Assembly: GCA_026625625.1 (NCBI GenBank)
Contig: CP113055.1
Span: 1,490,501-1,554,500, forward strand
Direction of reading: 5' to 3'
DNA from: Blastomonas sp. SL216
Lineage (GTDB): Bacteria > Pseudomonadota > Alphaproteobacteria > Sphingomonadales > Sphingomonadaceae
Length of the DNA stretch: 64,000 bases
The position numbers and the translations under genes are program-made. Below are positions 602-22,252 of the stretch, piece by piece (the stretch's first letter is position 1; each line of letters starts with the position of its first letter). Under the pieces are notes generated by a model, which saw nothing but the letters and a program-made list of their open reading frames with translations, was not told the DNA's origin and made no database searches.

Positions 602-3600
602 CTATTGCCCCTTGGCTGCCAGCATCGCCGGGCGCGGGCCCAGCCAGTCGGCCATGGTCACGGTATCGCTGACCTTGTAGGGCCTGCCCGCCTTGTTGAG
701 GAAAAGCTTCTCCATTTCCGAGCGGGTAAAGGGACGCGAGCCCAGACGTCCGAAGATCGCCATCTGCCCACCCGATTCATCGACCCCGCGGTCACGGTCC
801 AACCCCTTGGCCACCGCCAGCGCCGCCGATGGCGTCCGCGCCCAGGCGATCAGATCGGGCCTGGGATCGGGCGAGAAGCCATAGAAATTCGGCTGGCTGG
901 AGGGCGATGTCAGCTGCAGCACCTTCATGCCGTTGCGACCATCGGCGACATAGGCGAACAGCGTCGCGTTGGTCGACCCAACGATCACGTCCTCGGCATC
1001 GTTGAGCTGGCCGCCAGCATTGTAGCGCATATATTCGCGCGGGGCCTCCGGGTTGGTCATGTCGAGGATCACCAGGCCGTCCTGCTTGGCAGCGACATAG
1101 GCGAAGGTGCGGGCCAGGTAGAGCTTGCGCGCATTGGCCAGCCGGAAGGTGCCCGAGGGCACCGCCACCGGCGCTTCCAGCCGGGTGATGTCGAACAGCT
1201 TCACGCCTTCGGCATCGGTCACCCACAGGTAACGGAACTGCACCGCGCTCGCCCGCGCATCGGTGAGCGGCAGGACCGCCATCAGCTGCGGGTTGAGCTT
1301 GCTGTAATCATAGTCGCGCGGCGGATTGGCCGGGACGGGATCGGACAGCCGCACCACGACAAGCCCGGCATCGGCGGTGATATAGGCATAGTCGCCCGCC
1401 AGCGTGATGTGCCGCGCCCCCTTGAGCACATTGTCCGGGTTCCAGGTCAGCGTGCGCTTGAAGAAGTTGTTGCGGAACTCGCCATCGGCCAGCGTGTCGA
1501 TGTTCACCGCGATCAGGCCTTCGACGCTGTCGGTGACAAAGGCGTAATGATAGACCGCGTGGAACGGCTGTTCCTGATTGGCCTCGCGCATTTCCGGCGT
1601 GTTGCGGCTGGGCGCAATCGGCTGGGTCGTCGCGATCGCCATGCAGGTCGCGTTGGTCGTGTCGACATGCGTGTCATGGCCGAGCGACGAGAATGGTGCG
1701 CGGATGATGCGTTCGGAAAAGCCCTTGTTCCCGATCGAGGCGATGTCATAGGCGCGGAAACCGCCCTTGCCTTCCGCGACGAACATGTACTCGCCGCGGT
1801 TCTGCAGGCAGTTCACCGCGCCATCGGTGCCCTGCACGACATTGGCAAATTCCTCGCGCGCCTGCGTCTCACCCGACAGGCCATCGCTGAAGATCGGGCC
1901 ACGCGTCCAGTTCTTCAGCTCGCGGCCATTATCCTCGACATGCTGCTTGTAGTAATCGGGATAGGCATAGCGGTGCAGATACGATCCGATCACCGCCTGC
2001 GGCTCGTCCCATTCGGTGACGCGCACCGCCTCGAAGCCGCCTTCCAGACCGAACCAGCTGTTCAGGCCGACAAAGTTGACGAAATTGGTGCCGAGCAGCA
2101 GCAGCTGCGACATCACCGCGTTATTGTCGTTCGCCTCGCTCAGGTGGCAGTCGGTGCACTGCTTGGTCTCGGTCTTGCGCACGGTGTGCGGGAAGTGCGG
2201 TGCGAACGCCTGGGACGAGAAGCCCGGTGCCGAGATCGGCGGCTGCTGCACATAGATGCGCTCGCGGTTGATGTTGGTCGACGACAGGATCAGCGCCGAG
2301 GTCGAGCGGATCGGGGCGATGATGTTGCCCTTGCTCGTCTGGTGACGGCCGATCTGGAACATCTCGTCACGCGCGACCTGCGGGTTGTAGGTCGCATAGT
2401 TGCGCGTCTCGTCTTCCTCGTATTTGTGGACCTTGGCCTTCCAGTTGGCCTCGATCGGCAGGTGACAGCCGCCGCACGAAGTCGTCCAGCTCAGATGGCA
2501 GGTGAAACAGGCCATCTTGTCGGTATCGTGCGCGCGGTTCTCCTTCGAGACCGCGAGGCCAAAGCCGTATTTGCCGGTTTCCGCGCCCTGCTTGGCCATC
2601 AGCTTGGAGCGCGCGGCCTTGGGGTTGAAATCGGGGCTGTCGGGATTGACCGCATCCTTGACCAGGCTGACCTTCCACGACAGTTCGGGATCGAGCACCG
2701 AGCGCTGGATCAGCACGCGCCGTCCGGTCGCATCCTTCATCCATTCGAAGCGCCGCTGGCCATCGGGATTGCGGATCAGCGACAGGTTGTTGCCCTTGGG
2801 CCGCGCCGCCAGGTTCGAGGTGAACAGCGTCGGATAGGCATCCGCGGTACCGTGGCAGTCCTTGCAGCCGATCTCGACCGCATTGGCGACTTCGCCATAG
2901 ATCAGGCCGTTGCCGTGCCCGTCCTGGCTGAAGTGACAATCGACGCACTGCATGCCGAGCTCGGCATGAATGTCCATCATGTGCACGGCCTTGCCGGGAT
3001 TGGTGCCGACGGGCACGAACTTGCCCTCGCCTGCCTTGCGGAATTTCTCCGGATCGTCGGGCGAGACCATGTTGGCGGTATCGGTGCCCCAGGTCGCCAT
3101 ATTGCCTTCCGCGTCGAGCAGATTGCCCTTGCGGTCGCGCTTCAGGATCGCGCGGAAGTTCCAGCCATGGCCGTGATAGTCGGCAAACTGGGTGTCCTTG
3201 GCCTCGGTATTGAGGTCATAGACGTTGCGGACGAAATCGATATCCGACCACAGACCGCGCGGCGATGCGCCTTCCGGGTTGCGATCGAGCGTCGCGCGCA
3301 CTTCCTTGGCGGTCGGATAATGCTGCTTCTTGTAGATGCGCTGATAGTCTTCTTCCGACATGCCCTCGGGCTTGGGCGCACGGTTTTCCGGCCCCGGCCA
3401 CAGCAGCGGCGCGTCGGATTCATAATCCCACATCGTGTAGCCGAGATAGCTGTTCAGGAAGATATTGGGCTGGTGCATGTGGCAGTTCATGCACTGAGCG
3501 GTTGGGATCGCACGGGTGAAGGCGTGCTTGAGCGGATGGCCCTTTTCCTTGAACGCGACCTTCTCGGCATGCGCATCCTTGGCGCCATGGCCATCGCCGC

Positions 3601-4885
3601 GGCCGTGCGACGCGCCATGCTCGCCTGCGCCTTCGGCCAGCGTCGTGCCATGATCGCCGCCATGGCCCGACTTGTGCTCGCCGCCATGCTCTTCGTGATG
3701 CTCTGCCGCGTCATAATCGCCATAGCGACCCGGGCGCTTCTGCCCCTCGGTCAGGCTGTTGATCGTCGGGTCATCGGTGATCGTCTGACCATCGCGGCCA
3801 TATTTGGCATAGACCAGGCTGTGGCGCGGTTCGCGGTCATTGGCGTACACCACATGGCACGCCGCGCAGCCCGATGTGCGATAGTCGCCCGGCTGGTCGT
3901 TGGTGCCCATCTGCCACAGGAACGGATCGTTGAGGCGGGTCTTGTGGATGTTCAGCACCGGAATGGCGACACGCAGTCCGGTGCCGGGTCCACGGTTGGA
4001 CTGCTTGAGGTCGGGACGGCCAGGCTCTTCGAGACGCTGGATGATGCCGACGCTGTTGGGCAGGCCGATTTCCGGGAAGGTGGGGTTGATGTTGCGGCCG
4101 CCGCGTTCGAACACGCGGAAGATGTCGCCCGGCGGAATGATGTGCCAGGTCGGCAGCGGGTACATGACCGGCAGCGCGCCGCGCGCCTTTTCCGCCTCGG
4201 TCACGGTGCCGTGCGCTGCGCCCGGCTCGGTCGCGGCAGACTTGATCATCGCAGGCTTGCCGTCGCGAGTGAAGCTTTCACCGAACATGTAGTTCTTGAA
4301 CGGCACGATGCCGTTATTATAGGCCGCGCCGCCCCACAGCATCGCGCCGGTCGCCATCAGCGAGCGTTCGGATGCCTCGATGATCTCGATATGGCAGGCG
4401 CCGCAGGATTCGCGCACCACGCGGTAATCGGACGGATTGACGAAGCGGATGAACTCGGGCGCTTCCTTGGCGAGCAAGGCATAGGAACGCTGCGGGTTGG
4501 CCGAGCTCGGCCATTTCCACGCCACCGGATATTTGGGCAGGACGTGGCTCTTCATCAGCGCGTCCTGATAGGGCAGGCTTTCGCGGCCCCATTTGTTGTC
4601 GCCCATGATGGTCGCATCGCCGCCATGGCAATCGGTGCAGCCCAGCACCACGGCGGGCGATGCGTGCATCGTCTTGTGGTCGCTGGCGGTGTGGCAAGAC
4701 TGGCAGCCTGCGCTCTTGGCGTCGGCCTCTGCCCATTCCTGGTTCTCGGGTGCGGGCGGCGTGAAGGTGTATTTGACCTTCTGCGCTTTCTCCTTGCCCG
4801 AGGCGAGCAGCTGATCGGCGGGAAGCGCAGCAAAGGTGACGAGCAGCAGGCCCGTCAGCAGCAGCTTCCAGTTGAAGGCGGGCAT
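602..4885 (-). CDS. giant decaheme cytochrome c with C-terminal LVIVD beta-propeller
   Basis: A 1427-residue exported protein starting at the ATG at 4885. The frame is open further upstream, but only this start gives a signal peptide (hydrophobic residues about 8-21), and it lies 16 bases after the barrel gene. Ten CXXCH heme-attachment motifs start at residues 61, 83, 161, 340, 465, 647, 674, 793, 804 and 910. A His/Gly-rich insert spans about 395-450 between hemes 4 and 5. Residues about 1020-1340 carry repeats such as GLVVVRLSD, GVKLFDI, GLVILDM and GMKVLQL, typical of LVIVD beta-propellers. Family knowledge: such hemes wire electrons across the periplasm or outer membrane. Inference: terminal or surface reductase/conduit module working with the adjacent beta-barrel. 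There is no lipobox. The electron partner is unknown. Confidence 0.85.
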   Translation of the reverse strand: MPAFNWKLLLTGLLLVTFAALPADQLLASGKEKAQKVKYTFTPPAPENQEWAEADAKSAGCQSCHTASDHKTMHASPAVVLGCTDCHGGDATIMGDNKWGRESLPYQDALMKSHVLPKYPVAWKWPSSANPQRSYALLAKEAPEFIRFVNPSDYRVVRESCGACHIEIIEASERSLMATGAMLWGGAAYNNGIVPFKNYMFGESFTRDGKPAMIKSAATEPGAAHGTVTEAEKARGALPVMYPLPTWHIIPPGDIFRVFERGGRNINPTFPEIGLPNSVGIIQRLEEPGRPDLKQSNRGPGTGLRVAIPVLNIHKTRLNDPFLWQMGTNDQPGDYRTSGCAACHVVYANDREPRHSLVYAKYGRDGQTITDDPTINSLTEGQKRPGRYGDYDAAEHHEEHGGEHKSGHGGDHGTTLAEGAGEHGASHGRGDGHGAKDAHAEKVAFKEKGHPLKHAFTRAIPTAQCMNCHMHQPNIFLNSYLGYTMWDYESDAPLLWPGPENRAPKPEGMSEEDYQRIYKKQHYPTAKEVRATLDRNPEGASPRGLWSDIDFVRNVYDLNTEAKDTQFADYHGHGWNFRAILKRDRKGNLLDAEGNMATWGTDTANMVSPDDPEKFRKAGEGKFVPVGTNPGKAVHMMDIHAELGMQCVDCHFSQDGHGNGLIYGEVANAVEIGCKDCHGTADAYPTLFTSNLAARPKGNNLSLIRNPDGQRRFEWMKDATGRRVLIQRSVLDPELSWKVSLVKDAVNPDSPDFNPKAARSKLMAKQGAETGKYGFGLAVSKENRAHDTDKMACFTCHLSWTTSCGGCHLPIEANWKAKVHKYEEDETRNYATYNPQVARDEMFQIGRHQTSKGNIIAPIRSTSALILSSTNINRERIYVQQPPISAPGFSSQAFAPHFPHTVRKTETKQCTDCHLSEANDNNAVMSQLLLLGTNFVNFVGLNSWFGLEGGFEAVRVTEWDEPQAVIGSYLHRYAYPDYYKQHVEDNGRELKNWTRGPIFSDGLSGETQAREEFANVVQGTDGAVNCLQNRGEYMFVAEGKGGFRAYDIASIGNKGFSERIIRAPFSSLGHDTHVDTTNATCMAIATTQPIAPSRNTPEMREANQEQPFHAVYHYAFVTDSVEGLIAVNIDTLADGEFRNNFFKRTLTWNPDNVLKGARHITLAGDYAYITADAGLVVVRLSDPVPANPPRDYDYSKLNPQLMAVLPLTDARASAVQFRYLWVTDAEGVKLFDITRLEAPVAVPSGTFRLANARKLYLARTFAYVAAKQDGLVILDMTNPEAPREYMRYNAGGQLNDAEDVIVGSTNATLFAYVADGRNGMKVLQLTSPSSQPNFYGFSPDPRPDLIAWARTPSAALAVAKGLDRDRGVDESGGQMAIFGRLGSRPFTRSEMEKLFLNKAGRPYKVSDTVTMADWLGPRPAMLAAKGQ

Positions 4886-4901
4886 GACGCCGCGCAGCCG
4901 G

Positions 4902-7067
4902 TCAGTACGCCAGGATCGCATTGAAAAGCACCGAATAAAAGAGGTCTGACTTGCCCGATTGGGTGAACAGGTCGCGGAAGCCGCGCGAAGGATCGAAGAT
5001 CGCGCCCGAAAGGCGGAACACCAGATTCTGGTTGGCATTGGGACGCCAGATCGCCGCCGCCGAAACATCCCAGCCAATCGACGCCGGGATAGTACCCTCC
5101 TGGCGCAGCGCCTCAAGTGTATCGGTCTTGTGGAACCACAGATGGTTCACGTTCGCCGACAGCCGGGTCGTCGTGCTGAGATCGAAATCCGCGCCTGCAC
5201 CCAGCAGCACCGTGCCGGGATTGTTGAAGTTCGACTGGCCTTGCTCCTTGGACGAGCGCAGGTTGTTCAGGATGCCATTGCGGGTGTTGATACCGACCGC
5301 GCGGCCACCACCGGCAAAGGGGATGACCTGGCGGATCCAGTAGCTGGTATCGGCCCCGGCAAAGATCGGGTTTTCGAAGATCGCGTCGAACCCGCCCTCG
5401 GTATCGTTATACGGATTGCCATCGCCGCTGGCGAACAGGCCCTGCAGTCGGAAGCGCGCCCAGTCATTGTCATAGCTGATTTCGGCAGCGCCGAAATAGC
5501 TGCGGATATCGGCCTTGCGGCTGGTGAAGAAGCTGTTGCGGTCCTCGCCGAACGCGCCATAGGCCTGGCCGGTGATGTTGATCCGCCCGATGCGGCCATC
5601 GACCGCATAACCCAGATACACGACATCATATTCGCGGCTGCGCAGGTCGCCGAGCAGCGCCGGGCGCACCGGGAAGCCGTTATCGTCGATCTTGAGCTCG
5701 CGCCCGCCTTCGCGGTTCATGTTGTACGTGACCGAGACCTGGCTGGTCAGGCCGACAATCGGAAAGTCCTGGCGATAGACGTTGGCGAAGAACACCCAGT
5801 CGTCGCGCGGCGTATCGACGATGCTGTTGAGGCCCGAATTGGTGTCCTTTTCCAGCCGCCAGAACGCGCCCAGATTGAACTGGAAGCGGTTGTTGTCGCG
5901 GTTGCCGAACAGGCGGATGCCGAGCTGGTTGTCCTGGAACAGGAAGCCGCGGAAATCGGCCTGCATCGGCTGCACGCCTGCGCGAAGCGAGATGAAGTCG
6001 TAGCGCGAGCTGTCATATTTGCCGAGGTGGTAGTCGATAAACGCTTCCTGCACGCCGACAAAATGGTCGGTACGGTGCGTCGGGCGCGACGGTTCGACGA
6101 ACAGGATGCGCCGTTCGTTTACATCGACATAATTGACCTGTGCCGCCAGCACGAGGCGATATTCGATCGCGGGCGGCTTGTACGCGGTCTCGCCCTTGAG
6201 CAGCGAGAACCCGGCGATCACCGTCTGGGCCACCACCAGCGAATCCGCACGCCCGAACACGTCCAGGCTGTCAGGGCGAGAGGTCGTCTGCACACCGACG
6301 GGCGTCGGGAAGCTGCGCGGCTCGATCACCGTGTCGGACACGACATTGGCGATGAAGAACCAGTCATCCTCCTTCAGGAAACCGGGGCGCTTGCCCTCGG
6401 GCAAGGGCCGGTCGCCCTTGAGCACGTTCTGGTGATAGGGGTCGAGCTTCGAGCGACAGACGTTCGAAAGGTTCGGGTAAAGCCCGTAGATCGACTGATC
6501 GCCGCCCTTGGTCGGGCAGAGCGAGGTGACGATGCGCCAGCGATCGGGCACCGGGAACTCGTCGGTCGGGAATGCCTCGGGTGCGGGCGCGCGGACGGCC
6601 CCCGGATTGTCCTGCGTCACCCGGTCAGGCAGCTTCTTTTCGAGACCGGGACGGCGGCGGTCGTCGATCAGCGCCTCATCGGCATCGATGGTATCACCAT
6701 CGCTGGAGGACGGCGCGGGCGGCATCGCGCCCGGTGCCGGGGGTGCTTGCTGTTCGTCGGTCAGCAGCAACTCGTCCGCGCCCGCACCGGCGAAGAACAG
6801 GCTGTGGTCGCCCATCGCCCGCGGCGAGCTCAGCCGATGCGGAACGGGGGCCATCACTCGGTGCGAAGGCGCAGGCGATGCCGACGCGCTCGACTTCGCG
6901 ATGAGGCGCTCCAGCGCCATGCCCCGGCCCAGATCGGCAGCCACCAAAGCCGCGACAGCGGTCTGCGGCCCCTGATGCAGGACTGTGCCGGAAACCGGCT
7001 CGCCATGCTCAACGCCAGCCCCGGCGAAAGCCATGATCGGGATAAGGGCGACGAGCGGCACGGCCAT
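4902..7067 (-). CDS. outer-membrane beta-barrel protein of the multiheme cluster
   Basis: A 721-residue protein starting directly at the stop of the upstream lipoprotein gene (TAAATG), so the two are translationally coupled. A hydrophobic N-terminus is followed by a long Pro/Ala/Asp-rich linker (about 100-150). From about residue 260 to the end, alternating amphipathic strands with short Asn/Asp/Gly turns (NRDNNRFQFNLGAFWRLE is one) indicate a large barrel. The chain ends in an aromatic residue (ILAY), as outer-membrane proteins do, though Tyr replaces the usual Phe. Lying between two multiheme cytochromes and a lipoprotein, it could be the porin sleeve of a porin-cytochrome conduit, comparable in role to MtrB; that is inference, as I see no clear MtrB/PioB sequence signature. 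Confidence 0.75.
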   Translation of the reverse strand: MAVPLVALIPIMAFAGAGVEHGEPVSGTVLHQGPQTAVAALVAADLGRGMALERLIAKSSASASPAPSHRVMAPVPHRLSSPRAMGDHSLFFAGAGADELLLTDEQQAPPAPGAMPPAPSSSDGDTIDADEALIDDRRRPGLEKKLPDRVTQDNPGAVRAPAPEAFPTDEFPVPDRWRIVTSLCPTKGGDQSIYGLYPNLSNVCRSKLDPYHQNVLKGDRPLPEGKRPGFLKEDDWFFIANVVSDTVIEPRSFPTPVGVQTTSRPDSLDVFGRADSLVVAQTVIAGFSLLKGETAYKPPAIEYRLVLAAQVNYVDVNERRILFVEPSRPTHRTDHFVGVQEAFIDYHLGKYDSSRYDFISLRAGVQPMQADFRGFLFQDNQLGIRLFGNRDNNRFQFNLGAFWRLEKDTNSGLNSIVDTPRDDWVFFANVYRQDFPIVGLTSQVSVTYNMNREGGRELKIDDNGFPVRPALLGDLRSREYDVVYLGYAVDGRIGRINITGQAYGAFGEDRNSFFTSRKADIRSYFGAAEISYDNDWARFRLQGLFASGDGNPYNDTEGGFDAIFENPIFAGADTSYWIRQVIPFAGGGRAVGINTRNGILNNLRSSKEQGQSNFNNPGTVLLGAGADFDLSTTTRLSANVNHLWFHKTDTLEALRQEGTIPASIGWDVSAAAIWRPNANQNLVFRLSGAIFDPSRGFRDLFTQSGKSDLFYSVLFNAILAY

Positions 7068-9050
7068 TTACAGACCCTCGCAGACGTTCTGGGTGTTGGT
7101 ATCGAGGAACGGCGCAAACGGGCAGCTGACATAGCGCAGACGCACCTGCGCGCTGCCGACATTCACCACCACCCGGTCGGCGCGGCGATCATTGGCGGCA
7201 TTGCCGACCCCGCCGACGCGCTGGCCGCCATTGTTCAGGCCCAGAAACGCGACCATGTCATCCTGGTCGATACCGTCGCCCGACACGCCGATACCGCCGA
7301 TCAGCGTGTTGCCACGATAGATCGGCACACCGCCGGGGAAGATCTGGATGCCGTTTTCCAGCCGGTTCTGGCCCTGCACCGTGTCAGGCAGCGCGGTGCA
7401 GCGCTGCGCGGTATCGGTGGGCGAGGCCCCCGCGACGAACTGCGCGTGCTGGATGATGTTGGCCGCCACGAGCTGCACCTGCAGGCCCACGGCAAACGGG
7501 TTGAAATCGTCGATCGGGCGCGAGAGCGGGCCCGGCGGACGGCCAAGCTCGCCATCGGGGAAATAGGGCCGCGCCAGATTGCCGACGCTGCGGTTGCCAT
7601 AAGCGAAATTGCCGGTCAGCGCGTTGGGATCACCCAGAAAGGTGCGCATCGCCTGAACGAACGGCGCGACGCCGCCACCTGCCGCGAGCAGGTTGGCCCC
7701 GGCCTGCGGGTTCGAGAAGAACATCGCCGTGCGCGCCTTTTGCAGCGACACATCGGTGCCGAAGATCGGCGCATCGGGCGAACGGACGATGCCAAGCACC
7801 TCGCCATGCGTATCGACCACCGAGATCGTCGCCTGCATCCGGCTGTCGAGCGGGCGGCGGATCTGGGCGCGCGCGCGGGTGAGCACGGTGAACGCCTCTT
7901 CCAGGATCGCACGCACCTCGGCCGCAGTCAGCGGCTGGGTGACCGAGGCGGTATCGGTGCCGGCACGGATCGGGAAGCGCGGATTGCCCGCGCCATCGGT
8001 GAGGATGAAGGCGTCCGTATTGGCGAACTCGGCCGCGCGCGCGGCGCGGATGCCCGATGCTTCCGTACCATAAGGCGTACCCGCGATGATCGCGGCGCCA
8101 TTATAGCCGCGCACCGCGATTAGGCTGCCGGCGCTGCCGTTGATCGCCGCGAAATTGGTCGAGACCGCACCGATGTCGCTGGCCAGGATATCGCTGAACC
8201 GCAAGGTGGTGCCGTCCACCGTGATACGGTCGGCGCGGATGGCTTCCGGCGCGGCAAAGCTCTGGGTTCCGGCAAAGGCGATCGCCTCTTCCGGATCGAT
8301 ATCGCGGTCGAGGATATTGGGATCAAAGCCGTAATCGCCATCGCCCATCACGCCGATCGCGCCGACGACGACGCCGTTCTTGTAGAGCGGGAGACCACCG
8401 GGGTCAGCCGCCAGGCCCAGCGGCGAGCGCTTGGGACCGATGAACGCGCTCGCTCCGCCCGCCGACTGGAAGCGCGCCGACAGGTCGGAGCACGGCAGCT
8501 GGCTGAACTGCACGCCGAACAGCGGACCGCTTTCAAGACCGCGGGTCGAAGGCGCGGGCGGGAAATGCTGCTGGACGATCTGGCTTGCCGTACGCGACGA
8601 AAACGCGTTGCCGCCGCTCGAAAGATAGGCCCCGGTGACCGCCTTGGAAATGGCGGCCATTTCCGCCGGCACATCCAGGCCCTGCGCGTCGATGGTCGGG
8701 CTGTTCAGGCCCGCCTCGGTCATCGCGCTGGTGCGGGCCAGCGCGCGCGCGCCGTTCATGCGGAAGACCGCAAGCACATTGCCGACCCGGTCCACGACCG
8801 CGATCACCGAAGGCAGGTTGCGCCGCTGCGCTTCGCTCACCGCCTGGGCGATCACCTGCTGCACTTCGCCCACGGTCAGCGCTTCCTGCGCCGGGGCGGT
8901 GAAATTGCCACCCGCAGGCGGCGGGGTGGGATTGGGCGTCGGGGTCGGGCTGGGCGCAGGCGTGGTGCCGCTGCTGTTGCCGCCCCCGCAGGAGCTGAGC
9001 ACCAGCGCCATCGCGGCCAGGGATGCCGTTACCTTGCCAATTCGCATCAT
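7068..9050 (-). CDS. lipoprotein with two HbpS/GlcG-like (DUF336) domains
   Basis: A 660-residue lipoprotein with lipobox LSSC (Cys21) followed by a Gly/Ser/Pro-rich tether. Two copies of a GlcG/HbpS-like module follow. The first begins near residue 58 (LTVGEVQQVIAQAVSEA, then a VAVVDRVGNVLAVFRM strand). The second begins near 380 (LTAAEVRAILEEAF, then ISVVDTHGEVLGIVRS). Each copy later has the GGVPIYRNG-like loop (GGLPLYKNG and GGVPIYRGN) and GAIGVMGDG/GGIGVSGDG. The family includes the heme-binding protein HbpS and redox-operon proteins; heme binding here is inference. The gene sits 95 bases after the pentaheme gene and abuts the barrel gene, so it probably belongs to the same outer-membrane complex. 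Confidence 0.8.
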   Translation of the reverse strand: MMRIGKVTASLAAMALVLSSCGGGNSSGTTPAPSPTPTPNPTPPPAGGNFTAPAQEALTVGEVQQVIAQAVSEAQRRNLPSVIAVVDRVGNVLAVFRMNGARALARTSAMTEAGLNSPTIDAQGLDVPAEMAAISKAVTGAYLSSGGNAFSSRTASQIVQQHFPPAPSTRGLESGPLFGVQFSQLPCSDLSARFQSAGGASAFIGPKRSPLGLAADPGGLPLYKNGVVVGAIGVMGDGDYGFDPNILDRDIDPEEAIAFAGTQSFAAPEAIRADRITVDGTTLRFSDILASDIGAVSTNFAAINGSAGSLIAVRGYNGAAIIAGTPYGTEASGIRAARAAEFANTDAFILTDGAGNPRFPIRAGTDTASVTQPLTAAEVRAILEEAFTVLTRARAQIRRPLDSRMQATISVVDTHGEVLGIVRSPDAPIFGTDVSLQKARTAMFFSNPQAGANLLAAGGGVAPFVQAMRTFLGDPNALTGNFAYGNRSVGNLARPYFPDGELGRPPGPLSRPIDDFNPFAVGLQVQLVAANIIQHAQFVAGASPTDTAQRCTALPDTVQGQNRLENGIQIFPGGVPIYRGNTLIGGIGVSGDGIDQDDMVAFLGLNNGGQRVGGVGNAANDRRADRVVVNVGSAQVRLRYVSCPFAPFLDTNTQNVCEGL

Positions 9051-9145
9051 GCGACAATACTCCGCACCGATGCGACCCGGCCTGACATCACTGAACCAAA
9101 CTCACCAAAACGTCCCACTTTGGTCATCTCCCTGCCCAGCCGGTC

Positions 9146-10564
9146 TTATTGCAGCGACCGGATGGTCCGCACTGCTCCGCCGAGGGCCCGGCGGAATTCC
9201 AGCGGCTTGTAGGCATTGGGCTCAGCCACTGCGGCATAGGCCTGGTTGATCTGCGCCCGTAGCGAGGTTGCGGCGCCCCCCGACACCTGACCTTGCGTGA
9301 CCAGCCCGCTCAGCAGCGTATCGACGGCCATCACTGCCTGAACGCTGCCCTCGTAATCGGTGAAGCGCGGAGAAATCGCCTCGCTGGCGATCGATTCCAT
9401 GATCGAGAAGGTCTGCGCGCGGCTGAAGTCGGTGCGGCTGAACTGGTCAGCCAGCGCCATCGCGGTCTGGCGCAGCCGGTTGGCCGCCTCGACGGCCGGA
9501 CCACGGCCCTGCGCCATCGCGGCGTGGAAAGCGCGCGCCTGGGCTTCATATTGCGAAGCCATGCCCGGCGCTGCGATCCGCACCGCTGCCGAGAGCATGA
9601 TCATGTTCTCGTCATTATAGGGCGGCATGCCCGACGGGATCGGACGGCCAGGGTTGGAAAGCTTGGCCGGACGCGCGTCCTCCTCGTCATAGATGCGGCG
9701 GTGGCAGCTATGGCAGTCGAAGAAATAGAATTCGGGAAACACGCCTTCCTGGGCCAGGCCAGGCTTGCCGAACAGGCTGAGCGAACGTTCCAGCGCGATC
9801 GCCTGGCCCACCGCCCACATGCGCATCGAATTGGGCTTGCCCTTGCGCTGGCGGTAATCGGCATCCTCGTCATGATGCTGGGTCAGCGTCGAGAACAGGT
9901 CGAGCTCGAACGAGATGCGCGGATGGCCCGCCGCCATGATGCGGTGGTTGACGAACTGGCCCGGCGCGTCGTTGCCCAGATGGCAATCGAGACACACGCC
10001 AGCGCGCGCCTGCGCACTTTCGAGCGGGATCATGCCTTGCGAGACGTTGCGCGCATGGCTGGTGCCGGTGGCATAATGGCTGGAGAGCCAGCCCGAGGCG
10101 GCACCATGGCAGGCTTCGCAGCTGACGCCATCGCTGACCTGGAAGCGCGCGCCCTTGGCCGCAGCCGGAGTCGAGTGACAGCCCAGGCAGATCGCTGCCG
10201 ACCGCGGATCGCCGATGCCCAGCTTCTTGCCGATCGCCAGGCTGCGCGGTTCGCCCAGCACGCGGAAGGCGCGGCTGTGCGCGCCACCGGGCGTCGATTC
10301 TTCCTGCCAGCGCCACAATTCGTCCTGACGCACGACTTCGCCATCGGCCTCGTTGCGGCCATGACAGGTCGAACCCGCGCAGCTGCCCACGCCCATATGC
10401 GTGCCGCGCGCGGCGGTGCTGGCCGCCTGTGCCTCAAGCCGGTCGGCGGCTGCGAAATTCGCGATGAAGAAAGCGCCGATCGCCAGAGCAAGACAGGCCA
10501 TGCCCGCAATTGCGGCACGGATTCCACCCACGCGTTGAACGGCCCAAAGCCATGAATTGTGCAT
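9146..10564 (-). CDS. membrane-anchored pentaheme cytochrome c (c554-like)
   Basis: A 472-residue protein with one N-terminal hydrophobic helix (about 18-40) acting as signal anchor. The periplasmic part has five heme motifs: CAGSTCH at 62-68 (a CX4CH variant), then CLGCH (126), CEACH (149), CLDCH (191) and CHSCH (284). The first motif near the N-terminus and a SFELDLFS stretch with scattered His resemble the cytochrome c554/multiheme family that includes nitrifier c554. The C-terminal 170 residues are heme-free and helical. It is the first gene of the four-gene cluster and the likely inner-membrane or periplasmic entry point for electrons going to the outer-membrane module; the donor (quinol or soluble carrier) is not evident. 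Confidence 0.82.
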   Translation of the reverse strand: MHNSWLWAVQRVGGIRAAIAGMACLALAIGAFFIANFAAADRLEAQAASTAARGTHMGVGSCAGSTCHGRNEADGEVVRQDELWRWQEESTPGGAHSRAFRVLGEPRSLAIGKKLGIGDPRSAAICLGCHSTPAAAKGARFQVSDGVSCEACHGAASGWLSSHYATGTSHARNVSQGMIPLESAQARAGVCLDCHLGNDAPGQFVNHRIMAAGHPRISFELDLFSTLTQHHDEDADYRQRKGKPNSMRMWAVGQAIALERSLSLFGKPGLAQEGVFPEFYFFDCHSCHRRIYDEEDARPAKLSNPGRPIPSGMPPYNDENMIMLSAAVRIAAPGMASQYEAQARAFHAAMAQGRGPAVEAANRLRQTAMALADQFSRTDFSRAQTFSIMESIASEAISPRFTDYEGSVQAVMAVDTLLSGLVTQGQVSGGAATSLRAQINQAYAAVAEPNAYKPLEFRRALGGAVRTIRSLQ

Positions 10565-10805: not shown

Positions 10806-11483
10806 ATGAAGCTGGGCTTGGGATTTTCAGATGGCGCATGGCTTGGGCATCTGTCGTTCATGATCCTGGCGGTGGCGCTGATCGCGCCGCCCATGCCGTG
10901 GATGCGACTCGGCATCGTCCTCTCGGCCATTCTGGGCCTGACCTATGCGCTGGGCTTTGCCAATGATCTGGGGTTGGCCCTGTGGTTCTTCGTGCTGCTG
11001 GTGATCGGCGCATCGATGCTGCTGCGCTATCTGATGGCAGAGCGCAATTCGCGCTTCTCCGCCGAAGAAGAGGCGCTGCGGGCGAGCTTCATGAGCGAGA
11101 TGAGCCGCGCCGGTGCCCGGCACCTGATGGACCAGGGCAACTGGATCACGGGCCGCGAGGGCGAAGTGCTGATCAACGAGGGTGAGGCGATCAGCCATCT
11201 GTTCTACCTGCATGAGGGCGAGGCGGAGATTTCGCTGCACGGCAACCATGTCGGCACGGTCACCAGCGGCGACCTGATCGGCGATGCGACCGCGCTCAGC
11301 GGCGAGCCTGCCACCGGCACCGTCAGGCTTGCCAGCGACAGCCGCTTCTGGTGCGTCTCCGCGCCCAAGCTGCGTCAGTATCTGGAACTGCACCCCGATG
11401 CCCGCACGGTGATCGAGCGCCAGATCAACCATGCGCTCGACCGCAAGCTGCGTGCCGCCAATGCGGCGCTGGCGGGCGGCTGA
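10806..11483 (+). CDS. Popeye-like membrane protein with cyclic nucleotide-binding domain
   Basis: A 225-residue protein with three transmembrane helices (about 13-30, 35-51, 56-75) followed by a cNMP-binding-like beta-roll (about 95-215). Motifs include INEGEAISHLFYLHEGEAEI and GDLIGDATALSG, then RFWCVSAPKLRQYLELHP and a terminal amphipathic helix with DRKLRAAN. Three helices plus this domain is the layout of Popeye-domain (POPDC) proteins, of which bacterial members are known; the exact nucleotide is not predictable. A strong AGGGAGG precedes the ATG. It is transcribed divergently from the multiheme operon across a 241-base gap, so it may share regulation with it or sense something related to it. 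No DNA-binding domain is present. Confidence 0.75.
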   Translation: MKLGLGFSDGAWLGHLSFMILAVALIAPPMPWMRLGIVLSAILGLTYALGFANDLGLALWFFVLLVIGASMLLRYLMAERNSRFSAEEEALRASFMSEMSRAGARHLMDQGNWITGREGEVLINEGEAISHLFYLHEGEAEISLHGNHVGTVTSGDLIGDATALSGEPATGTVRLASDSRFWCVSAPKLRQYLELHPDARTVIERQINHALDRKLRAANAALAGG

Positions 11484-18792: not shown

Positions 18793-19368
18793 TTAACTGC
18801 CCTTTTTCGCCTGGTCCAGCGGGTAAAAGGTGTAGCTGAGGGTAATCTCTTCGATATCCTTGGTGTCCGGATCGGTCAGGATCGCGGGATCCACATAATA
18901 GATCACCGGCATCCGCACCTTCTCACCCGGCGCCAGCGTCTGCTCGGTGAAGCAGAAGCACTGCACCTTGGCGAAATAACGCCCGGCCTGGGTCGGCGTG
19001 ACGTTGAACGTTGCGGTCCCGGTCACCGGCTTGCTCGACAAATTGGTGGCAGTGAACGCCGCCATGTCGCGCGCGCCGATGGTGATCTTTTCGGTCGGAT
19101 TTTCCGGCTTGAAACGCCACGGAAGCGCCGAGGACACATTCGAATCGAACCGCACTGTGATGACCTTGTCGGTCACCGCAACCTTGGCTGCATCCGCTTC
19201 GCTGACCTTCATCGTCGTGCCACCAAAGCCGGTCGCCTCGCAGAAGATGCGGTAGAGCGGCACGGCAGCATAGCCCAGGCCCAGCATGGCCAGCGCCAGG
19301 CTGAGCGCGATGATCCCTGCCCGCCGGTTGCGGCGCGCCATGTCGGGGCTGATCGCAGCGCTGCTCAT
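18793..19368 (-). CDS. ctaG: cytochrome c oxidase assembly protein CtaG (Cox11)
   Basis: A 191-residue copper chaperone that delivers CuB to subunit I. It has one N-terminal membrane helix (about 17-36) and a periplasmic immunoglobulin-like domain with the copper motif QCFCF (Cys137, Cys139) plus Cys43 beyond the helix, as in Cox11. The start at 19368 was chosen because it overlaps the stop of the small upstream gene (ATGA) and removes a non-homologous leader. Confidence 0.94.
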   Translation of the reverse strand: MSSAAISPDMARRNRRAGIIALSLALAMLGLGYAAVPLYRIFCEATGFGGTTMKVSEADAAKVAVTDKVITVRFDSNVSSALPWRFKPENPTEKITIGARDMAAFTATNLSSKPVTGTATFNVTPTQAGRYFAKVQCFCFTEQTLAPGEKVRMPVIYYVDPAILTDPDTKDIEEITLSYTFYPLDQAKKGS

Positions 19369-19523
19369 CCCCACACCCCGATCTTCACGATGGTGATGAC
19401 ATAGAACAGCACGCACAAGGCGATGAGGATACCGGCCATGAACAGCGCGCGGCTGCGCTGGCGGGCGCGCAACTGAGCGAGCACTGCAGGATCGCTGAAA
19501 TCGGGGGTCGGGCGATCGGTCAT
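19365..19523 (-). CDS. small single-helix membrane protein of the cox operon
   Basis: A 52-residue protein too short for common gene-finding cut-offs. It reads [18 protein letters not shown], a basic RARQRSR segment, then one hydrophobic helix ending in VKIGVWG. Both its start and its stop overlap neighbours by four bases (ATGA with ctaB and with ctaG), which is strong evidence that it is translated. Similar short single-helix proteins lie between ctaB and ctaG in many alphaproteobacterial oxidase operons; the role is unknown but probably in oxidase biogenesis. Confidence 0.82.
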
Positions 19524-20494
19524 GCCGCGATCACCGGAACCACCGCGCGGTCGACGACCACGGCGGCAAAGATCAGGAACAGATAGACGATCGAATAGGC
19601 GAACAGCTGCTTTTCGGGCTTGAGCGCATCGCCCTCGCCCGCCGTGCGGAAACCGACGCGCGCAGCCAGCGCCACGAAGATTGCCGACAGCACGAACGCG
19701 CTGATGCCATAGGTCCAGCCGACCAGGCCCAGTGCGGCGGGTGCCATCACGGTGGCGAGCAGCACCAGCGAATAGCCGAACACCTGATGGCGCGTGGACT
19801 TTTCACCCGCGACATTGGGCATCATCGGAATGCCGACGCGCGCATAATCCATCTTCACGAACAGCGCGAGCGCCCAGAAATGCGGCGGGGTCCAGAAGAA
19901 GATGATCGAGAACAGCAGGATCGGCAGCATCGTGACATCGCCGGTCACGGCGGCCCAGCCGATCACCGGCGGAAACGCCCCTGCCCCGCCACCGATGACG
20001 ATGTTCTGCGGCGTGTTGGGCTTCAGCCAGATCGTGTAGATCACGGCATAATAGAAGACCGAAAAGGCCAGGATCCCGGCGGCGAGCCAGTTGACCGCCA
20101 GCCCCATGATGACGACCGAAAAGCCCGACAGCGCCAGGCCGAACTGCAACGCAGCCTCACGCTCCATGCGCCCGGCAGGGATCGGACGGTTGGCGGTGCG
20201 CTTCATCAGCGCGTCGAGATCGGATTCGTAATACTGGTTGAGCGCGGCGGCACCGCCTGCGCCCATCGCGATGCACAGGATCGCGACAAAGCCGATGACC
20301 GGATGGATATGGCCCGGCGCGGCCAGCAGGCCGCACAGGCCGGTGAACACCACCAGACGGATCACGCCCGGCTTGGTCAGCGCCCAGAAATCGCGCCAGT
20401 GCGCGGGCATAAGCACGCCCTGCTGGGCGGCCATGGCTCCGGTCTGCGCCTGAATCTGCGGTACGGCTTCGGTCATGCTCATGTCGGTACCCAT
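19520..20494 (-). CDS. ctaB: protoheme IX farnesyltransferase (heme O synthase)
   Basis: A 324-residue UbiA-family membrane enzyme that attaches farnesyl to heme b, giving heme O, the precursor of heme A for aa3 oxidase. The first Asp-rich motif is [15 protein letters not shown] with NRPIP after it, and several hydrophobic helices (about nine) span the rest, including [12 protein letters not shown] with its conserved PPHFWAL loop. Its last codons overlap the small downstream gene by four bases. A second start six codons in (MSMTEA) is possible. Confidence 0.95.
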
Positions 20495-20584
20495 ATGGCA
20501 AACCCCTCGCCGGCATGGTGAGGGGTGCCGGGCCGGTTCGGGTTGCCCCTTACCGGCCCTGTCGGAGTTGCGAAGCTGCTGCGA

Positions 20585-22252
20585 TCACTTGATGACGGGC
20601 AGCGTTTCGAACTGGTGGAACGGCGGCGGACTGGACAGGGTCCATTCCAGCGTCGTTGCACCTTCGCCCCAGTAGTTGCCTTCCGCACGACGACCGGCAA
20701 CCAGCGCATAGGCGATGTTGATGAAGAAGATCAGCATGCCGGCGGCCATGATGGCGTAACCCAGCGAGGCGATCTCGTTCCAGTAGGCGAAGGCTTCCGG
20801 ATAATCGGGGTAGCGACGCGGCATGCCCTGACGGCCCAGGAAGTGCATCGGGAAGAACAGAACGTTCACGCCGACGAAGAACACCCAGAAGTGCAGGTGG
20901 CCGAGCAGCTCGCTATAGTGACGGCCGCTCATCTTCGGGAACCAGTAGTAAAAACCGGCGAAGATCGAGAACACCGCGCCCAGCGAGAGCACATAGTGGA
21001 AGTGCGCGACCACGTAGTAGGTGTCGTGCATGTTGTCGTCGACGCCGCCATTGGCGAGAACGACGCCGGTGACGCCACCAACGGTGAACATGAAGATGAA
21101 GCCCAGCGCCCAGACCATCGGGGTCTTGAAGGTGAGCGAACCGCCCCACATCGTCGCGATCCACGAGAAGATCTTGATGCCGGTGGGCACCGCGATGACC
21201 ATGGTTGCGGCGGTGAAGTACATCTTCATGTTAACCGACAGACCGACGGTGAACATGTGGTGCGCCCACACCACGAAGCCGACGACGCCGATGGCGACCA
21301 TGGCATAGGCCATGCCGAGATAGCCGAACACGGGCTTCTTCGAGAAGGTTGCGATGATGTGGCTGATCATGCCGAATCCGGGCAGGATCATGATGTACAC
21401 TTCAGGGTGGCCGAAGAACCAGAACAGGTGCTGGTAGAGAACCGGGTCACCACCGCCTGCGGCGTTGAAGAAGGCCGAACCGAAGTTGCGGTCGGTCAGC
21501 AGCATGGTGATGGCAGCGGCCAGAACCGGCAGCGAGAGGAGAAGCAGGAACGCGGTCACCAGCATCGACCACACGAACAGCGGCATCTTGTTGAGCGTCA
21601 TGCCCGGAGCGCGCATGTTGAAGATGGTGGTGATGAAGTTGATGGCACCCAGGATCGACGAGGCACCGGCAAGGTGCAGCGACAGGATGGCAAGGTCAAC
21701 TGCGGGGCCAACCGAACCGCTGGTCGACAGCGGCGCGTAGACCGTCCAGCCGGTACCAGCCCCCAGGCCCGAACCGCCGGGCACGAAAGTCGAGCCGAGC
21801 AGCAGCAGGAACGCGGGGATCAGCAGCCAGAACGAGATATTGTTCATCCGCGGGAAGGCCATGTCCGGCGCGCCGATCATGATCGGAACGAACCAGTTGC
21901 CGAAGCCGCCGACCATGGCGGGCATCACCATGAAGAACACCATGATCAGACCGTGCGCCGTGATCAGCACGTTCCACATGTGATAGGCCTGGTCGAGCGT
22001 GGCTTCGCTGCCCTGCATCATCGTGGCCCAGCCCTGCAGATACTGCACGCCGGGCTGCGCGAGTTCCATGCGCATCAGGCCGGAAATCGCACCGCCGATG
22101 ATCCCCGCGACGATCGCGAAGATCAGGTACAGCGTACCGATGTCCTTGTGGTTGGTCGACATGAACCAGCGCTGGAAAAACGCGGGCTTGTGATCGTCAT
22201 GTGCATGATCATGGTCATGCAGATCGGCCGGATTGGCTGCAATCGTGGTCAT
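20585..22252 (-). CDS. ctaD: cytochrome c oxidase subunit I
   Basis: A 555-residue polytopic subunit with twelve helices, the catalytic heme a / heme a3-CuB core of aa3 oxidase. The CuB ligand and cross-linked Tyr motif [10 protein letters not shown] is present, as are the HHMFTVG His pair, the heme-ligand VAHFHYVLS, the [15 protein letters not shown] motif and the K-channel region. The N-terminus is His/Asp-rich ([11 protein letters not shown]). It lies 15 bases after coxB and 90 bases before ctaB. Confidence 0.97.

Follow-up and report, generated by a model that had tools for sequence, protein, structure and literature searches.

Four consecutive minus-strand genes in a 64,000-nucleotide stretch of the Blastomonas sp. 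SL216 genome (hereafter the window; bases 1490501-1554500 of a single 3.86 Mb contig) encode a pentaheme cytochrome, an HbpS/GlcG-like protein, an outer-membrane β-barrel and a large decaheme cytochrome ending in a β-propeller. We propose that these genes, referred to here as penta, hbps, barrel and deca, are probably the outer half of a seven-gene trans-envelope carrier that would export electrons from NAD(P)H to the cell surface, its inner half being encoded by three further genes, fad, cytb and fha. A first-pass annotation of the window had recognized the four genes and likened their composition to that of an outer-membrane electron conduit. The linked set of barrel and multiheme proteins is indeed conserved among relatives; that annotation missed the inner-membrane half because it lies outside the window. 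The gene content, motifs, homologies, linkage and co-occurrence described below establish that the system is real, conserved and widespread.

The first gene of the cluster, penta (9146..10564, minus strand), encodes a c554-like cytochrome of 472 aa with an N-terminal hydrophobic stretch at residues 12-41, a match to PF13435 (E 2.6e-8) and, in a profile search of the PDB, similarity to cytochrome c554 (1bvb, E 9.3e-7). The protein contains four CXXCH motifs and a fifth heme motif of the form CX4CH (CAGSTCH) that does not vary among the 12 aligned rows, the window included (13 were chosen and one start was moved), so that the earlier label of a five-heme protein is fair. The product of hbps (7068..9050, minus strand; 660 aa) has a lipobox-like LSSC sequence and a repeated HbpS domain, PF03928 being found in four stretches (E 5.5e-28; 98 bits, above the gathering cut-off of 25), and it resembles EfgA in the PDB (6bws, E 7.1e-8). 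Its assignment to the HbpS/GlcG family is thus secure, whereas its description as a lipoprotein is not shown to be general, since a loose lipobox pattern occurs in 43 of 66 relatives' open reading frames (ORFs).

The 721 aa barrel protein (4902..7067, minus strand) belongs to no named family: neither Pfam nor NCBIfam gives a match at E values up to 1, a PDB sequence search with its profile likewise gives none up to E 1, and its own genome contains a single match. An AlphaFold2 model built from 30 alignment rows (40 were first chosen from 55 of sufficient length) has 18 strands, counting those of at least 9 residues, over residues 236-720, with a mean pLDDT of 62 and a pTM of 0.65; the first ~211 residues are poorly modelled. 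Among the 50 PDB matches that Foldseek listed, AlgE alginate exporters rank first (E 1.8e-15; TM 0.64 when normalised by target length; 13% sequence identity), ahead of OprD-type porins and others, and MtrB is absent. The prediction of an outer-membrane barrel is therefore borne out by the model, whereas the notion of a heme-lined barrel of the MtrB type is not.

The last gene, deca (602..4885, minus strand), encodes a protein of 1427 aa with a signal-like N-terminus and, as had been read from the sequence, ten CXXCH motifs (first to last, 2144..4705) and a propeller of LVIVD repeats, C-terminal in position (PF08309, E 1.2e-13), the best repeat match covering residues 1259-1289 (1019..1111). 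Each of the ten CXXCH motifs is conserved without exception in the 31 aligned rows (39 were first chosen) at a mean column identity of 60%, so their conservation is beyond chance. From each alignment one row with an in-frame stop was left out, together with others as a precaution. The mechanical ORF start is TTG 5116, and ATG 4885, which precedes the signal-like hydrophobic stretch, is most likely the true start. With the start placed there the four genes abut, separated by 95, 0 and 16 bases, and the overlaps reported earlier disappear. A Pfam scan of the outer genes gave a cytochrome c7 match (26.5 bits against a cut-off of 24.8), NCBIfam gave only below-cut-off matches, and a PDB sequence search with the decaheme profile gave one match at E 0.78. 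In a model of the decaheme relative from locus L154 (loci are cited by L numbers) the mean pLDDT is 56, and the C-terminal propeller is confident.

The three inner-half genes of the window genome occupy a second locus at ~3.702-3.708 Mb, ~2.2 Mb from the outer genes along the contig. The product of fad is a flavoprotein of ~800-870 aa that combines a pyridine-nucleotide oxidoreductase, two cyclic-nucleotide-binding (cNMP) domains and 4Fe-4S motifs. Its flavin domain is nearest to YpdA, at a score far below cut-off; its C-terminal part contains 16 Cys, sufficient for four 4Fe-4S clusters, and a simple scan finds no hydrophobic segment. In L070 and L169 the fad protein, encoded upstream of cytb, contains PF13247. 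The cytb product (~280 aa) carries two W-x3-H-x13-H motifs and an SGxxG motif, whose residues, including the four His, are invariant in 14 of 14 rows, and the fha product combines an FHA domain, one hydrophobic segment and ten hemes. In L208 (L208:6850-10206) and L209 (L209:3052-6423) fad and cytb form a single ORF of ~1120 aa, a fusion which argues that the two proteins work together. L207, L208 and L209 contain fad-cytb-fha without outer genes in the stretch examined, L207 being cut by a contig end. An ORF that by eye resembles a TonB-dependent receptor lies close to the L209 locus (L209:10082-12301).

Of 298 genomes sampled from the same family, 119 contain the barrel gene, and these represent 42 of 96 genera. 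Decaheme matches were found in 36 of 385 genomes of a class sample (29 strong, one of them a contig-end piece, and 7 weak) and in 21 of 398 genomes of a phylum sample (11 strong, 10 weak). A scan of named genomes yielded 171 relatives, the best 80 of which were analysed as named loci; their titles are those of the records themselves, some implausible for metagenome bins (e.g. pathogen names), and they refer to alpha-, beta- and gammaproteobacteria such as Solimonas, Dokdonella, Tahibacter, Pseudoteredinibacter and Hyphomonas. Plasmid-borne relatives of 67-69% identity occur in Sphingobium and Sphingopyxis. Each of 20 same-family loci preserves the order penta-hbps-barrel-deca, and hbps-barrel-deca is kept in all 15 other class loci with strong matches, 6 of which have a penta relative nearby and 14 an fha relative. 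Outside this count stand five class loci chosen for weak decaheme matches (L080-L084), where no hbps or barrel was seen; two of them, L080 and L081, encode 12-heme proteins of ~785 aa distantly similar to decaheme residues 622-812.

Co-occurrence across genomes was examined, as the first-pass annotation had proposed. In the 36 full named loci, defined as those with more than 9 kb on both flanks, hbps-barrel-deca has the same order and strand in every case, and fad, cytb and fha are nearby in 34. Over all 80 named loci, contig ends included, barrel is found in 77, hbps in 65, fha in 59, fad in 57, cytb in 56 and penta in 47. The two halves also occur together where they are not adjacent: among 59 same-family genomes, barrel and fha are both present in 20 and both absent in 37 (Fisher p 1.5e-13), the exceptions being one genome, 67% complete, with barrel alone and one with a weak partial FHA match alone. 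A single stretch of 20 kb takes in both halves in 3 of 6 further sphingomonad loci around fha and in 7 of 20 around barrel. Sphingobium herbicidovorans has them side by side on pMSHV (NZ_CP020539.1, L218), a 959 kb plasmid typed as conjugative by PLSDB that carries the whole seven-gene set, under generic annotations such as 'heme-binding protein', 'hypothetical protein' and 'multiheme c-type cytochrome'. The pairwise distances of six of the genes correlate across 55 loci (r 0.73-0.94, uncorrected for shared phylogeny). Wide distribution and the 36/36 linkage rule out a chance assembly or an oddity of a single lineage.

The nearest known relatives of the system are the putative porin-cytochrome clusters, or conduits, described as PCC4 by He et al. 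2017 (PMC5566968). As described there, the inner-membrane protein (IMP) of PCC4 has five transmembrane helices with an SGXXG and two WX3HX13H motifs, a pfam13247 4Fe-4S gene stands upstream of the IMP gene in subgroup II, and the clusters are described without an extracellular multiheme cytochrome and with cytochromes of near 4, 5 and 10 hemes (PMC5566968). By these descriptions, and not by sequence match to the clusters of the paper, three loci (L210, L211 and L214) were assigned as PCC4-type, having a pfam13247 protein, an IMP and cytochromes of near 4, 5 and 10 hemes. The best fit is L214, which contains a porin-like ORF, picked by eye like the other porins compared here, that has no Pfam match; in L211 no porin-like ORF was seen and the c554-type protein has 3 CXXCH motifs, and in L210, a 9 kb contig, only the 4- and 10-heme proteins are visible.

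Comparison with these loci indicates that an inner-membrane core is common to both systems and that the outer halves differ. The cytb product is homologous to the IMP of L214, L211 and L212 (hhalign Prob 98.95, E 9.5e-18) and shares the SGXXG and two WX3HX13H motifs of the published description, with PF13247 in fad upstream; the fha product is homologous to the decaheme protein of L214, L211 and L210 (Prob 99.4, E 5.6e-22), and the pentaheme cytochrome to the c554-type protein of the same three loci (Prob 99.4, E 2.9e-21). A cNMP and 4Fe-4S protein of the PCC4-type loci is similar to the C-terminal part of fad. In contrast, the barrel is unrelated to the porin-like ORF of L214 (Prob 0.2; one sequence), and the pentaheme protein of L214 does not match the decaheme-propeller protein (Prob 23). 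The heme numbers of the present set are 5 (4 by CXXCH), 10 and 10; two of the three proteins are homologous to PCC4-type proteins and the third is not. Further differences are the fusion of a YpdA-like domain to the cNMP/4Fe-4S part of fad, whereas in L214 and L211 the FAD/NAD/2Fe-2S reductase is a separate protein (by Pfam in L214, by eye in L211), the FHA domain that here replaces the Cys-rich N-terminus of the PCC4-type decaheme protein, and the presence of the HbpS protein and the LVIVD propeller.

The PCC3 clusters of the same source have cytochromes with medians of 34 and 21 hemes, one heme for every 22-39 aa (PMC5566968). One locus of this type by description, from a genome of the same class (L213:9194-16600), contains cytochrome genes for 24 and 27 hemes together with a porin-like ORF. 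Its IMP has the arrangement W-x3-H-x13-H / SGxxG / W-x3-H-x13-H as well (cytb against L213 IMP, Prob 97.6), whereas its porin-like part (Prob 0.1; one sequence) and the one cytochrome compared are unrelated to the proteins described here. Heme density (10 hemes in 1427 aa) and a different porin and cytochrome rule out identity with PCC3 as described. Likewise, the combination of a barrel with multiheme proteins recalls MtrCAB, PioAB and MtoAB as an idea, but PF22113, the MtrC/MtrF domain, is matched only below cut-off, and an MtrAB-type conduit is ruled out by PF11854, the MtrB/PioB barrel family, which has 0 matches in the genome and none in the barrel. Residues 637-686 of the decaheme protein resemble the Geobacter ExtM family (NF040943, E 1.2e-18), the best NCBIfam match among the outer genes, but at 66.7 bits against a cut-off of 800. 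As the first-pass annotation had supposed, a named system with this combination of parts did not turn up, in a literature search made mostly at the level of listings, with He et al. 2017 covered in part. From these comparisons it appears to be a new porin-cytochrome variant with an NAD(P)H-type inner half, whose outer parts match neither the PCC4-type loci, as set by description, nor MtrB/PioB.

The cofactors, localisation and order of carriers that we propose are as follows. Cytoplasmic NAD(P)H would reduce the YpdA-like FAD domain of fad, from which electrons would pass by way of its 4Fe-4S clusters to the two b hemes of cytb and on to the periplasmic ten-heme domain of fha. They would then be handed to the pentaheme cytochrome, where present, and travel either through the barrel or alongside it until they reach the decaheme-propeller protein on the cell surface; this protein would reduce an acceptor outside the cell. 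The HbpS protein may act as an accessory in the periplasm or at the surface and might bind heme or iron. YpdA is an NADPH enzyme, and the membrane potential favors electrons leaving the cell. An outward direction is favored chemically and by this potential, the flavin domain of fad being nearest to YpdA; such flow would therefore spend energy rather than conserve it, as NADPH oxidase does. In the eukaryotic NADPH oxidases and ferric reductases, a flavoprotein on the cytoplasmic side feeds two b hemes bound by HX13H pairs. The present set shares this layout of a flavoprotein leading to a two-b-heme HX13H protein, a likeness of layout, and differs in that the electrons must here cross a second membrane via multiheme proteins. 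He et al. themselves likened the HX13H pattern of the IMPs to ferric reductases and NADPH oxidase (PMC5566968).

Several genes and domains suggest control of the carrier by cyclic nucleotides and perhaps phosphorylation: the cNMP domains of fad, the FHA domain of fha and, in sphingomonads, an adjacent cyclic-nucleotide-phosphodiesterase-like gene. This SpdA/CpdA-like gene matches NF050112 (E 1.3e-41) with 143 bits, the cut-off being 400. Of 15 sphingomonad fha loci, 14 have it no more than 600 bp from fha, and the window genome is among these; examples are L169:11343-12188 and L218:14020-14865. A PP2C-type gene follows penta in 10 of 80 named loci, all with gammaproteobacterial titles (L105, L107, L129, L143-L145, L148, L152, L155 and L167), and in nine of them a double-FHA gene comes next; Pfam identified a single member of each type, and the others were assigned by cluster membership. 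A crude protein-kinase regular expression matched in none of the 80 named loci. Taken with the PP2C-type and double-FHA genes, the cNMP and FHA domains point to signal control, by which the carrier may be gated.

A number of observations weigh against this proposal. The hydropathy scan of cytb gives four separate segments, not five, the stretch of the first motif falling below threshold. Penta is not nearby in 16 of the 36 full named loci (it is present in 20), and two loci titled Lysobacterales (L120 and L123) keep hbps-barrel-deca, but the stretch examined there shows none of fad, cytb and fha. The genes suggestive of regulation differ between lineages: none of 14 class fha loci has the phosphodiesterase-like gene, and of 59 named fha loci two have it, adjacent in neither, so that its link with fha is a sphingomonad trait. 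The surface location of the decaheme protein rests on its signal-like N-terminus and its barrel partner, and its propeller matches generic WD40-type propellers in Foldseek searches. Low-confidence stretches in the heme part of the L154 model (pLDDT below 50 at roughly 18-356, 460-495 and 605-720) make the heme spacing unreadable. MtrB has 26 strands; a heme wire in the lumen of the present barrel is doubtful, since it is AlgE-like with 18 strands and perhaps too narrow. Finally, the set is known from genes alone and has no characterised member.

Electrons might also flow inward, the decaheme protein accepting them from an outside donor (Fe(II), Mn(II), a mineral or another cell) and passing them via cytb to quinones. 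The homology of cytb to PCC4-type (Prob 98.95) and PCC3-type (Prob 97.6) IMPs argues for this, because He et al. modelled PCC3 and PCC4 as taking electrons from a donor outside the cell and delivering them to the quinone pool (PMC5566968). Yet fad, which has no hydrophobic segment in a simple scan, is fused to cytb in two genomes, and reduction of NAD(P)+ by donors in the Fe(II) range would run uphill. The few named isolates among the relatives, moreover, are presumably aerobic heterotrophs, and we regard an inward conduit as unlikely. The decaheme-propeller protein could instead be a surface reductase for one specific substrate, merely fed by the other components. The mean between-locus identity of 66% for the decaheme protein against 35% for fha is what an active site might produce, a comparison biased by the choice of loci through decaheme similarity; no catalytic multiheme family, however, is matched above cut-off, ExtM included, and such an enzyme seems to us rather unlikely.

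A role in iron nutrition, in which the HbpS protein and the cytochromes would reduce ferric iron or free heme iron for uptake, is quite improbable in our judgement. It would account for the HbpS/GlcG family membership, for the HX13H pattern of cytb that was likened to ferric reductases by He et al. (PMC5566968) and for the TonB-receptor-like ORF (by eye) close to the inner-half locus of L209. Against it, 25 c-type heme sites would be a costly route to iron, and the lack of a recognised iron-uptake gene in the conserved clusters, which were not systematically annotated, weighs lightly in the same direction. Export of electrons from NAD(P)H remains our preferred reading. A bolder form of it, tentative and in our view somewhat unlikely as a whole, would see in the set a bacterial equivalent of NADPH oxidase that is gated by signals. 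Three proteobacterial classes would then possess a complete exporter from NAD(P)H to the surface, switched by cyclic nucleotides (with FHA phospho-signals), operating without energy conservation and making the cell surface strongly reducing, which could serve the reduction of Fe(III), of oxygen to superoxide or of polymers, or the dumping of electrons in an oxygen-poor biofilm.

The genes beside the cluster are less constant than the cluster itself. A divergent neighbour (10806..11483, plus strand) encodes a small membrane protein with a cyclic-nucleotide-binding-like domain, in which residues 85-198 match TIGR03896 at E 1.3e-7, the 31.3 bits falling short of the cut-off of 161; it is loosely linked to the operon and may not be part of the set, a gene of this kind being found in 4 of 20 same-family loci, along with FAS1 (1 of 20), folB (1 of 20) and a small ORF at 223-555 (5 of 20). 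About 8 kb from the conduit genes, ORFs at 18793-22252 on the minus strand resemble by eye an aa3-type cytochrome c oxidase operon (CtaG-, CtaB- and CoxA-like); the organism appears to be aerobic.

Extracellular electron transfer has been studied mostly in metal reducers and iron oxidisers. The set described here is present in 119 of the 298 genomes sampled from the family and in records labelled as alpha-, beta- and gammaproteobacteria. If our proposal is correct, a cytoplasmic NAD(P)H enzyme bearing cyclic-nucleotide sensors would be linked to a surface cytochrome. Enzymatic extracellular reduction by such bacteria would then be testable in cultivable strains.

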